From Luteimonas sp. YGD11-2 (GTDB taxonomy: Bacteria; Pseudomonadota; Gammaproteobacteria; Xanthomonadales; Xanthomonadaceae), in NCBI RefSeq assembly GCF_004118975.1, contig NZ_CP035376.1, forward strand, positions 1,426,001 through 1,490,000: a DNA stretch of 64,000 bases, given 5' to 3'. A program made the translations under genes and the position numbers. This document shows, piece after piece, positions 35,855-41,022 of the stretch. Every line of letters starts with the position of its first letter. The stretch's first letter is position 1. The notes below the pieces were generated by a model. That model made no database searches. It saw only the letters and a program-made list of their open reading frames with translations, and had not been told where the DNA came from.

Positions 35855-37423
35855 ATGCGCGGATCGCGATACGGACGGGGCCTGGGCTGTCTGCTGGCGG
35901 TCGCAGGCCTGGCATGGGCTCCGCTGCAGGCCTCGCCGCGACCGCAGTGGGCGTTCTCCACCGATGCGGTGTTCGATGCCTCCGCGGTGCCGGCCTATGC
36001 CCAGCGGCGCGACGACGTGTACGCGCGCATCGATGCGGACCTCGACAGCCACGTGGAGCACCTGCAGCGCTGGGTGCGCCAGCGCTCGATCAGTGCCGTC
36101 GACGACGGCATCGACGCCATGGCGCAGATGCTCGCCGACGATCTGCGCACGATCGGCTTCCAGGAGGTCGAGCTGGTGGAGACGCGCGGGCATCCCGGCG
36201 TGCTGGCCCATTACGACGCCGGCGCGGCGCGCACGCTGGTGGTCTACATGATGTACGACGTGCAGCCGGTGGAGCCCAACTGGCGCATCGATGATCCGTT
36301 TGCCGGCGAGCTGGTGGAGCACGAACTGGGCACCGTGCTGATGGCGCGCGGTGCAACCAACCAGAAGGGTCCGCAGCGCGCATTCCTCAATGCGGTGGAC
36401 GCGATGCTCAGGACCCGCGGCACCCTGCCGGTGAACCTGTACGTGGTCGCCGAAGGCGAGGAGGAACTCGGTTCGCCCAACTTCGGGGCGGTGCTTGCGC
36501 CATGGCAGGAGCGCCTGCGCCGGGCGGACGGCGCGTTCTTTCCGATGAACATCCAGGCCGCGGACGGCAGCGTCGCGCTCAACCTGGGGGTCAAGGGCCT
36601 GGTGTACTTCGAGCTGGAGTCCCGTGGCGGCGGGCACGGCGGCCCGCTGCGTTCGGAGGTGCACGGGTCGCTGAAGTCGCTGGTGGATTCGCCGGCGCTG
36701 CGGCTGGTGCAGGCGATCGCCTCGCTGACCAGCACCGATGGCAACACCATCGCGATTCCCGGCTACTACGACGCGGTGCGCGGGCCGACCCCGGACGAGC
36801 AGCGGCTGGTCAATACGCTCGCCCGCGACGCCGACGATGCCGCCCAGCAGCGGCTGTACGGGGTCGCACGCTGGATCGATGGCATGACCGGGCGCGACGC
36901 CATCGTCCGCAACCTCTACGACCCGACCCTCAACCTCAACGGCATCTGGAGCGGCTATACCGGCGAGGGGGTCAAGACCGTGCTGCCGCACGTGGCGACC
37001 GCGAAGCTGGACTCCCGACTGCCGCCGGGGCTGGAGCCGGACGAGGCCTACCGGATGATCCGCGCGCATCTCGATGCCGGCGGCTTCGGCGACATCGAGC
37101 TGCGCCCGCTTGCGGGTTATCCCGCCGCCGCCACCGGCGTGGACACGCCGCTGGTGCAGGCCGCGATCGGCGTGTTCAACAGGTACGGGGCGACGCCGCG
37201 GGTCTCGCCGTGGCTGGCGGGCAGCGCGCCGTTCTACCAGTTCACGCGCACGCTCGGGCTTCCGTTCGTGTTCGGCGGGCTGGGCCACGGCTCCGGTGCG
37301 CACGCGCCCGACGAGTACATGCTGATCCATCCGGCCGCCGGGGTGCGCGCCGCCGGCCTTGCCGATATCGAGAAGTCCTACGTCGACCTGCTGCACGCCT
37401 TCGCGGACGCGCCGGCGCCGTGA
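35855..37423 (+). CDS. M20/M25/M40-family hydrolase-like protein, exported, with altered metal ligands
   Basis: A 522-residue protein with a signal peptide (residues 1-26, ending LQASPR) and M20 architecture. Several hallmarks are changed: the first metal His in GHYDVQP is Met here (YMMYDVQP, Met133), and the bridging Asp of RGxxDxKG is Asn (RGATNQKG, Asn169). The Glu pair in AEGEEELGSP and the late HGSGAHAPDEYM are retained. GGGHGGPLRSEVHG in the middle fits the lid domain. It may be a variant peptidase with another metal arrangement, or inactive. Its stop overlaps the GNAT start (GTGA). Confidence 0.82.
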   Translation: MRGSRYGRGLGCLLAVAGLAWAPLQASPRPQWAFSTDAVFDASAVPAYAQRRDDVYARIDADLDSHVEHLQRWVRQRSISAVDDGIDAMAQMLADDLRTIGFQEVELVETRGHPGVLAHYDAGAARTLVVYMMYDVQPVEPNWRIDDPFAGELVEHELGTVLMARGATNQKGPQRAFLNAVDAMLRTRGTLPVNLYVVAEGEEELGSPNFGAVLAPWQERLRRADGAFFPMNIQAADGSVALNLGVKGLVYFELESRGGGHGGPLRSEVHGSLKSLVDSPALRLVQAIASLTSTDGNTIAIPGYYDAVRGPTPDEQRLVNTLARDADDAAQQRLYGVARWIDGMTGRDAIVRNLYDPTLNLNGIWSGYTGEGVKTVLPHVATAKLDSRLPPGLEPDEAYRMIRAHLDAGGFGDIELRPLAGYPAAATGVDTPLVQAAIGVFNRYGATPRVSPWLAGSAPFYQFTRTLGLPFVFGGLGHGSGAHAPDEYMLIHPAAGVRAAGLADIEKSYVDLLHAFADAPAP

Positions 37424-37971
37424 GCGCGGTCGCGCCGGCGGTGCCATGGCCCGCCGGCTACCGCACCCGGCGCGTGCTGGTGCGCCCGCTGCATGGCGAC
37501 GACCTGGACTTCCTGACCGCGCTGCATGCCGACCCGGGCGTGATGCGCCACGTGGGTGATGCGCTGGGGCTGGACGCGGCGGCCGCCGTTGCCCGCCGCC
37601 TGCTGCGCGCCGCGCAGCGCACACCGCCGTCGATGTACGCGTGGATGCTGCAGACACTCGATGCCGCAGTGCCGATCGGCCTGATGACGGTGGCGCCCAC
37701 AGCGGACCCCGCGCGCGGCGAGCTCGGGCTGATGTTCGATCCGCGGCAGTCCGGCTGCGGATACGCGACGGAAGTCGTGGCAGCGCTGCAGCAGCAGGTC
37801 CATGCTCTGGGCGGAGTACTCGACGCCAGGCACCGCCCGGGCAACGTGGCGGTACGCCAGCTGATGCTGCGGCTGGGTTTTCTGCCCCGCGCCGGGGAGG
37901 GCGGCTACGTCGGCTGGTGCAGCCTTCCAGCGACGCGGCTGCCGGTGCTGTCGCCCGGCGTCAAAGGGTGA
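37420..37971 (+). CDS. GNAT family N-acetyltransferase
   Basis: A 183-residue GNAT. RRVLVRPLHGDDLDFLTALHADPGVMRHVGD is the usual N-terminal block. GELGLMFDPRQSGCGYATEVVAALQQQVHAL holds a relaxed acetyl-CoA pyrophosphate-binding segment, and ARHRPGNVAVRQLMLRLGFLPR the Asn- and Arg-containing motif B. RimJ/RimL-like acetylation of a protein or amino-acid N-terminus is the closest role. The GTG start overlaps the M20-like stop (GTGA), so the two are coupled. The borosin-type methyltransferase begins 37 bp after its stop; a link to that pathway is possible but unproven. Confidence 0.8.
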   Translation: MSAVAPAVPWPAGYRTRRVLVRPLHGDDLDFLTALHADPGVMRHVGDALGLDAAAAVARRLLRAAQRTPPSMYAWMLQTLDAAVPIGLMTVAPTADPARGELGLMFDPRQSGCGYATEVVAALQQQVHALGGVLDARHRPGNVAVRQLMLRLGFLPRAGEGGYVGWCSLPATRLPVLSPGVKG

Positions 37972-38008: not shown

Positions 38009-38863
38009 ATGGGCAGTCGGGGGCGACTTTCCTGCGTGGGGCTGGGGATGATGCTGGGGGCGCATCTGGCACCGCGTGCGCGCAGTGAGATCTCCAGTGC
38101 CGACGTGGTGTTCGTGGCCGCCGCGGACCCGATCGTCGAGCGCTGGGTGCAGGGCATGCATGCCGACGTGCGCAGCCTGCAGCCGTGCTATGGCGAGGGG
38201 CGTTCGCGGCACGCCGCGTACCGCGACATGGTGTCGATGATGATGGCCGAGGTGCGCCACGGTGCGCGCGTCTGCGGGGCGTTCTACGGCCACCCCGGCG
38301 TATTCGCCACCGTCCCGCACCGCGCGATCGCGCAGGCGCGCGCGGAAGGCTTCGACGCGTGGATGGAGCCGGCGGTGTCCGCGGAGGACTGCCTCTATGC
38401 GGATCTCGGCATCGATCCCGGCCGCGTCGGTTGCCTGCATCTGGAAGCCAGCCAGTACCTCGCCTACGTGCGGCGCATCGACCCGTCCGCCTACCTCGTG
38501 CTGTGGCAGATCGGCGTGGTCGGCGACCTCGGCGTCAGCCGCCGCAGCACCGGCGCGGTCGAACGCGCGCTCCTGGTGGGCAAGCTGCTGGCCGACGGCT
38601 ATCCGCCTGACCACGAGGTGATCCTCTACGAGGCCGCGACGCTGCCGGTCGATCGTGCGCTGATGGCGCCGATCGCGCTGGATGCGCTGGTGGATGCCAG
38701 CCCGTCGATGCAGGCGACACTGGTGATCCCGCCGGCGCGGCCGATGCGGCGCGACGAGGCCATGATCGAACGCCTGCGCCAGGCCGGCCGGTGGTCGACG
38801 CGAGATGCGTTTGCCGGGGGCAGGGGTACGACTGCGGAACATCGCGAGGCGGCGCCGGCCTGA
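38009..38863 (+). CDS. borosin-type peptide N-methyltransferase (split, stand-alone)
   Basis: A 284-residue tetrapyrrole-methylase-fold protein (residues about 8-240). It resembles the OphMA/SonM peptide-backbone methyltransferases more than cobalamin-pathway enzymes. The key stretch CYGEGRSRHAAYRDM (60-74) keeps the Tyr/Arg/Tyr residues (Tyr61, Arg65/67, Tyr71) of the borosin active site. It is followed by AFYGHPGVF (91-99), the SAEDCLYADLGIDP block (124-137) and VLWQIGVVGDLG (164-175). These enzymes N-methylate backbone amides of a precursor peptide with SAM. Fungal versions carry the substrate in the same chain; here the C-terminus ends at residue 284 without a core, and a small peptide gene follows after 73 bp. 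Confidence 0.85.
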   Translation: MGSRGRLSCVGLGMMLGAHLAPRARSEISSADVVFVAAADPIVERWVQGMHADVRSLQPCYGEGRSRHAAYRDMVSMMMAEVRHGARVCGAFYGHPGVFATVPHRAIAQARAEGFDAWMEPAVSAEDCLYADLGIDPGRVGCLHLEASQYLAYVRRIDPSAYLVLWQIGVVGDLGVSRRSTGAVERALLVGKLLADGYPPDHEVILYEAATLPVDRALMAPIALDALVDASPSMQATLVIPPARPMRRDEAMIERLRQAGRWSTRDAFAGGRGTTAEHREAAPA

Positions 38864-38936
38864 GCACCGGCGGGCGTGCGACGGGTGTGCGTCTGTTGTC
38901 GGGTATGCGGTATCAACCACACAGAGGGGAAGGCGG

Positions 38937-39179
38937 ATGTTTGACGAGGACCTGGGCAGGCTCGAGGCGCTGGGAGAGCTGCCACGTGGCAGCGTTGTCG
39001 ACGACATGGCGACGCTGGTCGCGTCCGTCGCCAGCGAGCGCGCGCGGCACGATGCGCTGATGTGCATGATCATCGCGCCGGATGAGGGCGAAACGGAGTT
39101 TCCCGAGGAGCGGACCGATGAAGGACATGACGACGGCCAACCGGAACCGGCCGAGCGCGGGGACCGCGCGCCGGAGTAG
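38937..39179 (+). CDS. candidate borosin precursor peptide
   Basis: An 80-residue peptide with a good AGAGGGGAAGG site before the ATG. Residues 1-38 are helical and amphipathic (DEDLGRLEALGELPRG; VDDMATLVASVASERAR), compatible with a leader bound by the methyltransferase. Residues 39-48 (DALMCMIIAP) are hydrophobic, with the beta-branched pair Ile45-Ile46 typical of methylated borosin cores. Residues 49-80 are a very acidic, Pro/Glu-rich follower. The stop at 39179 lies 62 bp inside the next gene, in another frame. Assignment as substrate is an inference from position, size and composition. Confidence 0.6.
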   Translation: MFDEDLGRLEALGELPRGSVVDDMATLVASVASERARHDALMCMIIAPDEGETEFPEERTDEGHDDGQPEPAERGDRAPE

Positions 39180-41022
39180 CTGGCCCACGCGCGGGCGGTG
39201 GCTGTCCGCGCTGTGCCTGTTGCTCGCGATGCCGATGGTGGCTGTGGCCGCGGGTGCGGCGGCCGCCGGTGTCGACGAGGTCGAGGCGCTGCTCGTCGAG
39301 GCGGGCAGCGTCAAGACGTCGGACGTGGCGCGTTTCCAGCAGCTGCTGGCCGAGCTCGACGCGCGTGCGCACGACGCCACGCCGCAGCAGCGGCAGCGGC
39401 TGCAGATCCTGCGCGCGTATCGGCATGCCCTGCTGGGCGAGTCCGGTGCGGCCGTGGCGTTGCTCGAGGAGGTGCTCGGGGAAAGCCGCGACGCCGATAT
39501 CCGCTTCGAGGGCGGTGGTCTGCTGTCGAACATCCACGCCGCCAACCGCCGCTTCGAGGACTCGCTGCGCATCCTCGAGGAGATCCTGCCGCTGCGCGAT
39601 CACATCCAGGACCTGGAGATCCGGCATCGCGGATTGCTCAATGCGGGCGTGGTCTACAACCAGGTCGGCGAGTACCGGCTCGGCCTGCAGCTGGCGCAGG
39701 CGGTGCTGGATTCCCGGCCCGAGCCGCGCAACACCTGCGCCGCGGAGAACCTGGTGGCGGAAGCCGCGCTGGGGCTGGAGGAGGATCTCGACGAGGCGCG
39801 GCTGCGCGCCAACATCGCCCACTGCGATTCGATCAACGAACGTGTGTTCGCCGCGTTCGCGCGCGCCCACCTTGCGCGCTGGCTTGCGGCGAGCGATCGC
39901 GTGGACCAGGCGATCAGGCTGCTGGAAAGCTACCTGCCGACCGTCGAGGACATCCGCTATCCGTTCCTGCAGGGCGTCTACCACGCGCTGCTTGCGGAGT
40001 ACCGCCTGCGCGACGGCGCGCGGGCGCAGGCGGAGGCCCACGCCGCGGTCGCCGTGCAGCGCACGCGCGGGATCGGCAATATCGAGCCGCTGGTATCGGC
40101 ATACGGTACGCTCTATCGCATTGCCAGCGAGCGCGGCGACGCCGAGGCCACGCTGGAGGCCTACAAGGCGTTCGTGGACGCCGAGCGCCGCCACCTCAAC
40201 GACATCAAGTCGCGCGAGATGGCCTACCAGATCGTGCGTCACCAGTCGCAGCAGCAGGCGCAGCAGATCGAACTGCTCAACCAGAAGAACGCGCTGCTGC
40301 AACTCGACCAGAGCACCACGAAACAGCGCGCGCGGCTGTGGCTGGTCGTGGCGGGCCTGCTGTCGTTCCTGCTGGCCACCACCGCGTACTGGGCGTTCAA
40401 GACCAAGCGCCTGCAGATGCGCCTGCGACGGCTGGCCGAGCTCGATGCGCTGACCGGCGTCAGCAATCGCCACCATTTCACCGAAAAGGCCGGCAAGTTG
40501 CTGGCGGCATGCCGGCAGGACCACCGGGTGGTCGCCCTGCTGACCTTCGACCTGGACCACTTCAAGCAGGTCAACGACCGCTTCGGCCACGAGGCCGGCG
40601 ACTGGGTGCTGCAGCAGGTGGCGAAGGCGTGCGCGGAGCTGTGCGGGCCCGGCGACTGCATCGGCCGGCTGGGCGGCGAGGAATTCGCGATGCTGCTGCC
40701 CGGCTGCGACGCCGCCACCGGGCGGCGGGTGGCCGAGGATGCGCTGGCACAGCTGGCCGCGGTCGATACCGGCCAGCGCGGTTATGACCTGTGCATCGCC
40801 GCGAGTTTCGGCATCACCGACACCACACTGTCGGGGTATGACCTGACCCGGCTGATGTCGCATGCCGATCGCGCGATGTATGCCGCCAAGCGCGCCGGCC
40901 GCGCGCGCGTGGCGGTGTTCGACGAGGACAATGTGCGTGCGCTGACGCCGCGATCCGGCACCGGCGACGGGCCCGTGGACCTGCGCCTGTCCGGCGGCGA
41001 GCGGCGCGTGCTGCCGGTGTAG
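39118..41022 (+). CDS. TPR-repeat diguanylate cyclase, membrane-bound
   Basis: From the ATG at 39118 (GAGGAGCGG upstream) the protein is 634 residues. It has a signal-like hydrophobic segment (about 28-48), a TPR-type helical sensor region (about 53-350), one transmembrane helix (about 407-425) and a GGDEF domain with GGEEF at 519-523. The RxxD inhibitory site is absent (GPGD instead), so product inhibition is probably weaker. The periplasmic TPR would relay a signal to c-di-GMP synthesis. The first 62 bp overlap the precursor-peptide gene out of frame. An earlier in-frame ATG at 39082 is possible but has a weaker site. Confidence 0.85.
   Translation: MKDMTTANRNRPSAGTARRSSWPTRGRWLSALCLLLAMPMVAVAAGAAAAGVDEVEALLVEAGSVKTSDVARFQQLLAELDARAHDATPQQRQRLQILRAYRHALLGESGAAVALLEEVLGESRDADIRFEGGGLLSNIHAANRRFEDSLRILEEILPLRDHIQDLEIRHRGLLNAGVVYNQVGEYRLGLQLAQAVLDSRPEPRNTCAAENLVAEAALGLEEDLDEARLRANIAHCDSINERVFAAFARAHLARWLAASDRVDQAIRLLESYLPTVEDIRYPFLQGVYHALLAEYRLRDGARAQAEAHAAVAVQRTRGIGNIEPLVSAYGTLYRIASERGDAEATLEAYKAFVDAERRHLNDIKSREMAYQIVRHQSQQQAQQIELLNQKNALLQLDQSTTKQRARLWLVVAGLLSFLLATTAYWAFKTKRLQMRLRRLAELDALTGVSNRHHFTEKAGKLLAACRQDHRVVALLTFDLDHFKQVNDRFGHEAGDWVLQQVAKACAELCGPGDCIGRLGGEEFAMLLPGCDAATGRRVAEDALAQLAAVDTGQRGYDLCIAASFGITDTTLSGYDLTRLMSHADRAMYAAKRAGRARVAVFDEDNVRALTPRSGTGDGPVDLRLSGGERRVLPV

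Follow-up and report, generated by a model that had tools for sequence, protein, structure and literature searches.

A split borosin locus of Luteimonas with an internal core, a shortened leader and an overlapping TPR-GGDEF sensor gene

Which peptide would be modified by a borosin-like methyltransferase that carries no substrate in its own chain, and what is the gene of a predicted membrane sensor doing on top of the gene of its candidate precursor? Both questions are raised by a locus of Luteimonas sp. YGD11-2 within the stretch of 64,000 nucleotides analysed here (referred to as the window). An initial annotation had described the locus as a pair of genes, one for a peptide N-methyltransferase and one for a separate precursor with a new type of leader. 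Both of these open reading frames are present on the forward strand (Table 1), as are all of the motifs that had been cited: CYGEGRSRHAAY (with Tyr61, Arg65/67 and Tyr71), GHPGVF, SAEDCLYADLGIDP and VLWQIGVVGDLG in the enzyme and ALMCMIIAP in the peptide. The two-gene description holds for enzyme and precursor, but it overlooked a constant partner, a TPR-GGDEF gene that the precursor gene overlaps by 62 nt, stop included.

Table 1. Features of the borosin locus, in positions of the window.
Feature	Position	Strand	Basis
GNAT acetyltransferase, upstream, possible accessory	37423..37971	+	Acetyltransf_3, 5.7e-18
Borosin-type peptide backbone alpha-N-methyltransferase, stand-alone, 284 aa	38009..38863	+	PF00590, 2.4e-18; SonM, 3.7e-56
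Precursor peptide, 80 aa	38937..39179	+	Open reading frame with ribosome-binding site; position common to relatives' precursors
Shortened leader, residues 1-39	38937..39053	+	AlphaFold2, low confidence; core Cys at residue 43
Putative core ALMCMIIAPDE, residues 40-50	39054..39086	+	Identical in L031; motif common to relatives
Acidic follower, residues 51-80	39087..39176	+	Open reading frame and overlap with the next gene
Predicted membrane sensor, 634 aa: signal peptide, TPR-like domain, membrane helix, GGDEF	39118..41022	+	GGDEF, 2.4e-39

The locus was compared across 247 genomes of the window's family, 90 of which hold the enzyme. Together, 93 places in this family besides the window's own, 24 places from named records and the window gave 118 loci, or 113 after deduplication. 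We refer to 81 of these as group 1, comprising loci with at least 54% identity to the window enzyme plus L038, L039, L041 and L049, which were assigned by hand; the 32 loci outside group 1 include 18 fused proteins (L129-L146). As a second bacterial family we used that of genome G591 (f140, 118 genomes), from which 40 loci were fetched of 61 match places. All-against-all BLAST clustering of neighbouring genes was muddled by antisense open reading frames in this GC-rich DNA and was superseded by targeted tblastn searches, of which the one for the GGDEF-type sensor misses kinase-type sensors.

The methyltransferase and its precursor

No substrate is fused to the end of the enzyme, as had been noted before and as is borne out by the end of its reading frame. 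Its sole Pfam match is PF00590 (TP_methylase), a domain matched at one other place in the genome, and NCBIfam adds a weak match to YabN (29.7 bits against a cut-off of 525). When the window enzyme was compared with the PDB by phmmer, SonM was the best match (193.9 bits; 41.8% identity over 251 aligned residues), with dbOphM (9.3e-43, 150 bits) and OphMA (2.7e-39) also recovered; borosin enzymes account for 25 of the 26 matches with E up to 1. A grouping with cobalamin or siroheme methylases, which the initial annotation had named as the outcome that would speak against a borosin enzyme, did not appear: there is none among these 26 matches. PMC8429565 describes SonM residues Y58, R67, Y71, Y93, F99, E146 and W166 as active-site, lock or core-contacting residues. 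All seven are kept in the window enzyme and are invariant in 79 aligned group-1 enzymes (two cut-off ones of the 81 omitted), while R68, E173 and Q178 from the clamp region of SonM are H, D and R in the window enzyme. Comparison with the enzyme of L031, an 85%-identical relative, gave a dN/dS of 0.17. The identity of a tetrapyrrole methylase was rejected since the PDB matches are borosin enzymes and the borosin residues are retained: judged by its sequence, the protein is a borosin-type backbone N-methyltransferase, with methylation as its predicted activity.

The small open reading frame downstream of the enzyme starts with an ATG preceded by AGAGGGGAAGGCGG as ribosome-binding site. In L031 an open reading frame is found at the equal place; it agrees with that of the window at every residue from 40 to 67 and differs at 10 of the first 39. 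A family HMM grown from five seed peptides collected, after iteration, 88 peptides at 79 of the 81 group-1 loci, the window included; matches were weak for the peptides of the window (E 0.07), L031 (0.03), L072 (0.009) and L087 (0.02), which were retained for their position and core. The two loci left over are L093, where the stretch ends with the enzyme, and L120, where 960 bases of contig are left. Small open reading frames at a like position in relatives agree with a separate precursor adjoining the enzyme, and their conservation had been put forward as a test of the proposal; that the window's own is a chance open reading frame was rejected, as it is kept across relatives including L031.

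Within the peptide, a motif of hydrophobic residues, a Cys, further hydrophobic residues and then Pro or Ala with an acidic residue recurs in relatives. In the window it occupies residues 40-50 of 80 and is followed by the acidic follower, so that the core lies inside the peptide, as proposed; it is also internal in the motif-bearing group-1 relatives. A Cys lies within residues 39-80 in 73 of the 88 group-1 peptides. Independent marks of a core at about residues 40-50 come from two directions: the precursor of L125, in which four copies of the core motif can be discerned (LSCLVFTPE, YFCWVATPE, YFCAVNTPE and YFCGVLTPE, three of them detected as a DNA repeat), and the additional precursors that stand in tandem in L034 and L065 and stop directly after the core without a follower. 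The small open reading frame is likely the precursor of the neighbouring enzyme, and the two very probably form a split borosin pair, for which methylation is predicted.

Upstream, a GNAT acetyltransferase match is present in 29 of the 81 group-1 loci, the window included, and in 27 of them it sits 1.3-1.6 kb before the enzyme stop; the acetyltransferase is a possible accessory of the operon. No Rfam family and no promoter-like site was found in the window by the respective scans, and terminator-like sites number 2 against 0.9 expected.

A SonA-type family leader, shorter in the window

The initial annotation had judged the peptide to be unlike SonA and to bear a different type of leader. Its first statement stands for the window peptide alone, which has no match in the PDB, but not for the family to which the peptide belongs. 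A profile of 14 group-1 peptides, from which the short-leader forms were excluded, was compared with the whole PDB and found SonA chains as its seven best matches (8.7e-5 to 3.8e-4). Seven peptides from fused loci, L040, L045 and L046 match SonA in the PDB at 4e-16, and the two sets of peptides align with each other by profile (96% probability). For the L033 precursor, AlphaFold2 predicts five helices (residues 3-13, 15-18, 22-30, 36-44 and 47-54; mean pLDDT 82), in agreement in both number and extent with the SonA leader, for which five helices over residues 1-53 are given in PMC8429565. From the SonA-first matches, the profile alignment and these five helices it follows that the leader of the group-1 precursor family is SonA-type.

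By comparison with its relatives, the window peptide has a leader shorter by about 17 residues. Where the simple core motif was found (59 peptides; it was not detected in 29 of the 88), the core Cys falls at residues 53-63 in 52 peptides, at 41-43 in five (the window at 43, L031, L072, L077 and L087) and at 46 in L125, the start of L115 having been wrongly chosen. In its own genome the window peptide does not reach E 0.001 with the family profile, and the AlphaFold2 model of its leader consists of two helices (2-13 and 17-37) at low confidence (pLDDT 70, pTM 0.28). Where exactly residues are missing differs between alignments A1 and A4. According to the tree of the enzymes, L031 and the window group with the long-leader loci L055, L064 and L032 (98/97). 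A clade apart from theirs (100/99) holds L072, L077 and L087 and is linked to its neighbours by a branch with a support of 93/93. Two separate short-leader branches thus suggest that the leader was probably shortened twice independently. The new type of leader was abandoned in favour of a shortened SonA-type leader, with the family profile matching SonA first and the shortening seen in the window clade and one other.

Two further observations concern the precursors. The peptide of L055, at -3 to 200 from the enzyme stop, has a full-length leader and an end that reads RGRPACGRHARADAG, and has possibly lost its core. At L043, L047, L048, L050, L051, L052 and L054, the borosin-type enzymes have long precursors beside them in which core-like units are repeated.

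Among known systems, the fungal proteins OphMA and dbOphMA share a homologous methyltransferase domain with the window, but the fungal enzyme and substrate form one chain, whereas those of the window are separate. The type IV split borosin SonM/SonA from Shewanella oneidensis is like the window in its stand-alone enzyme, in its active-site residues and in its separate adjacent precursor, whose helical leader is of the type shared by the window precursor family. A C-terminal core is a trait of SonA and, to our knowledge, not of all split borosins. The SonA core covers residues 62-71 of 71 according to PMC8429565, whereas that of the window is internal and followed by an acidic stretch, with Cys frequent in the family; the window leader is also shortened by about 17 residues. 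In the window, enzyme and precursor are followed by a TPR-GGDEF sensor gene, the comparison with Shewanella covering the first two genes. As far as sequence allows it to be placed, the window locus belongs with the split borosins, nearest to SonM/SonA, with an internal core and, in the window clade, a shortened leader.

The TPR-GGDEF sensor and its occurrence with the enzyme

The protein encoded by the overlapping gene has a GGDEF domain with a GGEEF motif and two hydrophobic segments. The domain between these segments is TPR-like: Pfam TPR matches are sub-threshold for the window protein, but a profile built from these domains finds homology to the clear TPR region of fused protein P0005 (4e-37), to the kinase sensor of L173 (2e-31) and, at 3e-18 to 3e-6, to eleven further sensors of the kinase type, with no match to the kinase sensor of L042. 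The TPR domain is predicted to be periplasmic, and the protein is probably a membrane sensor that makes c-di-GMP, judging from its domains.

This arrangement is common to group 1: in 75 of the 81 loci, the window included, a GGDEF sensor gene lies on the 3' side of a precursor, at most 400 nt from its end; a GGDEF motif is found in all 75 of these sensors, an N-terminal hydrophobic segment in 63 and an internal membrane segment in 72. A TPR match lies within the fetched stretch in 77 of the 81. Two Cys are invariant in 120 aligned TPR-GGDEF sensors (the window and 119 others from two families, all passing the TPR HMM), in which other Cys columns are almost absent. Both Cys are present in 17 of the 18 fused sensors and missing in 12 of 13 kinase-type sensors checked, L173 having both. 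A pairing of the core Cys with these two sensor Cys was considered and found to be unsupported: both sensor Cys occur in 17 of the 18 fused sensors, and a Cys after residue 50 in 5 of their 17 precursors.

Enzyme, precursor and sensor are also found in other arrangements. In the 18 fused loci the GGDEF protein carries the enzyme as its C-terminal part; the order SP-TPR-TM-GGDEF-MTase was checked by Pfam in one fused protein, P0005. The precursor lies just upstream in 17 of these loci, and L142 has about 0.9 kb before the enzyme. TPR sensors with HisKA/HATPase domains were found by Pfam in L042, L044 (two), L045 and L046, and TPR-kinase sensors by reading and a custom HMM in L173 and L174; L173 has a hybrid kinase before the enzyme and a GGDEF sensor after it. 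Multiple precursor-sensor pairs stand beside one enzyme in L097, L116, L044 and L195. Eleven stretches around sensors distant from the enzyme were also analysed: precursors were found in L159-L161, none could be recognised beside the seven copies of L152-L158 (two of these in genomes G164 and G193), and L162 begins inside the sensor. L159 is a precursor-sensor pair inside a 72-kb contig, with no enzyme in the 8.5 kb fetched and an enzyme on another contig of the genome; it alone was counted, L160 (which starts inside the sensor at a contig end) and L161 (a 6-kb contig) being possible assembly breaks.

Two loci with unusual precursor numbers were observed as well. At L192 (f140), five precursors with similar cores lie downstream of the enzyme and before one TPR-GGDEF sensor. 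At L125 (3500-8560), the four-core precursor lies by the enzyme, with a C39-peptidase ABC exporter and an HlyD protein downstream and no TPR-GGDEF match.

In order to follow the genes across whole genomes, occurrences were counted raw, with relatedness handled by the genus table alone. The precursor profile matches in 77 of the 247 family genomes, each with the enzyme, leaving 13 enzyme genomes without a precursor-profile match, the window's own included. Sensor and stand-alone enzyme occur together in 71 of the 247 genomes, with 2 holding the sensor only, 3 the enzyme only and 171 neither, when 16 genomes with the fused enzyme alone are counted as being without a stand-alone enzyme. Of the 74 genomes counted with a stand-alone enzyme, those without a sensor are G022, G043 and G134 (the last with an enzyme of a different kind, 41% identity), and the sensor lacks an enzyme in G164 and G193 (2 of 73 sensor-bearing genomes). 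Counted by eye, the corresponding numbers of genera are 20, 0, 3 and 31. Fisher tests were applied to this genus table and to the genome table of f140.

In f140 a SonM-like enzyme is present in 47 of the 118 genomes. A TPR sensor lies near the enzyme in 39 of the 40 fetched loci (the exception being L200), with a kinase output in 6 as judged by the custom HMM, and a precursor was found by HMMs in 31. Counted by eye, 33 genomes hold both genes, 3 the sensor only, 14 the enzyme only and 68 neither; 7 of the 14 enzyme-only genomes have a kinase-type sensor (G591, G650, G661, G670, G685, G690 and G706) that the GGDEF-type profile missed. The enzyme is rare in a class-wide sample of 369 genomes, nine of which, that of the window among them, match it at E 1e-20. 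Of the eight other class loci, L172-L174 each have a SonA-type peptide and a TPR sensor, and L175-L179 showed no precursor match and, by eye, no sensor among their longest open reading frames. The GGDEF-type sensor has no match in the other-kind borosin loci L043, L047, L048, L050-L052, L054 and L147, in four of which kinase-type sensors were sought by eye. As a separate observation, the borosin-type enzymes of L176, L177 and L179 stand near a protein of about 450 aa that looks similar by eye and near transporter-like open reading frames, with no SonA-type precursor.

Mirror-tree partial correlations were 0.23 for the TPR domain given the enzyme, 0.18 for the GGDEF domain given the enzyme and 0.29 for the enzyme given the TPR domain. 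Precursor distances are explained equally well by enzyme distances and by sensor distances, and co-evolution thus gives no specific support.

Possible roles of the peptide

Gene order, co-occurrence, fusion and the swapping of outputs together point to the TPR protein as a receptor of the borosin product, a role to which we give an even chance. That the window holds a split borosin operon making and sensing its own N-methylated peptide is the reading that we slightly favour. Its helical leader would dock the precursor on the methyltransferase, which would methylate the hydrophobic core (about A40-A47, LMCMII) on its backbone nitrogens; both of these steps are strongly indicated by homology. 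Unlinked proteases may then cut off the leader and the acidic follower, and the core would exit the cytoplasm. The periplasmic TPR domain of the next-door protein could bind this peptide, as its anatomy, the genome-wide co-occurrence and the fusions suggest, and binding could alter the production of c-di-GMP by the GGDEF domain; in other bacteria, a like sensor would drive a histidine kinase. Weighing against this reading are the sensors without an enzyme (G164, G193) or without a recognisable precursor (L152-L158), the f140 loci without a precursor match, the other-kind borosin loci without a GGDEF-type sensor match, the window leader, which is not SonA-like by sequence, and the neighbour clustering, in which no linked protease or exporter was shared. 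As a tentative proposal, somewhat short of an even chance, split borosins with SonA-type leaders may act as ligands in modular signalling that is widespread among Gammaproteobacteria, with a dedicated periplasmic TPR receptor, an exchangeable output (GGDEF, histidine kinase or hybrid kinase) and one enzyme able to serve several precursor-receptor pairs per genome, the window being its minimal-leader form.

The proposal that a TPR domain senses the product of a neighbouring peptide gene recalls the RRNPP receptors, a likeness of function and not of membership. RRNPP proteins are cytoplasmic and control transcription, whereas the TPR domain of the window is predicted to be periplasmic and the output is a GGDEF domain or a kinase. 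Membership was rejected on this basis, as a hydrophobic and a membrane segment flank the TPR part in the predicted topology. With regard to earlier work, the legend to Figure 1 of PMC11395268 lists GGDEF among its abbreviations for borosin architectures, indicating, as far as a legend can, that a GGDEF link has been drawn before; compared with those architectures, known from the legend alone, the window has enzyme, precursor and GGDEF protein as three genes. Our literature searches, with the borosin surveys of 2022 and 2024 outside their scope, found no link between N-methyltransferase, RiPP, TPR and diguanylate cyclase, between borosin and Lysobacter or between borosin and c-di-GMP. The novelty of the borosin-GGDEF link is uncertain.

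Other explanations have to be weighed against a sensed peptide. The product could be an ordinary secreted natural product (an antibiotic, metal binder or protease inhibitor), the TPR-GGDEF protein sensing envelope stress, cell density or something else in order to time its production. RiPP clusters often come with regulators, and the exporter genes beside the four-core precursor of L125, where no TPR-GGDEF sensor was matched, would suit such a product. In PMC8429565 it is also stated that, as of 2021, no final product was known for split borosin pathways. However, the usual regulator would be a transcriptional one and the output here is a second-messenger enzyme or a kinase; multiplied precursor-sensor pairs and 18 enzyme-GGDEF fusions are also better matched by a ligand and its receptor, and we regard this explanation as rather unlikely.

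Alternatively, the peptide may act inside the cell, or methylation at the membrane may directly regulate the neighbouring GGDEF protein, without any export. The fused enzyme does follow the GGDEF domain, on the predicted cytoplasmic side, and no shared protease or exporter emerged from the crude neighbour clustering, in which no family beyond the three largest clusters occurs in more than 9 of 113 loci. Nevertheless, the sensor part lies between the N-terminal hydrophobic segment and the membrane helix and is predicted to be periplasmic, and the two Cys that are invariant in 120 sensors would suit a disulfide outside the cytoplasm; action within the cell is improbable.

It is quite improbable, too, that the precursor of the window clade is decaying, its leader having lost the docking fold and the enzyme no longer modifying it. 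The short leader, its lack of a SonA-like match and the weak two-helix model would agree with decay, as would dN/dS for the window and L031 precursors, which is 0.38 over the whole peptide and, in this one pair, 0.60 for the part not overlapping the next gene. Against this stand the identity of residues 40-67 between window and L031, compared with 10 changes in the 39 leader residues, the retained active residues and low dN/dS of the enzyme, and the retention of the short form in a second clade of three genomes. Finally, a tetrapyrrole methylase next to a chance small open reading frame, for which the general TP_methylase domain as sole Pfam match and the weak YabN match could be quoted, has a negligible probability given 25 borosin enzymes and no cobalamin or siroheme methylase among 26 PDB matches, the borosin residues kept and the small open reading frame conserved.

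Returning to an operon that would make and sense its own peptide, a sensor that tracks the enzyme in two families, is fused to it elsewhere and has its output swapped provides a testable idea of what the peptide may do: the companion sensor hints that it is a signal. If this is true, the signal would carry a methylated backbone, and such chemistry is prized in drugs for its protease resistance. In addition, the short leader of the window suggests that the docking domain may be trimmed, which would be useful for the engineering of borosin enzymes.
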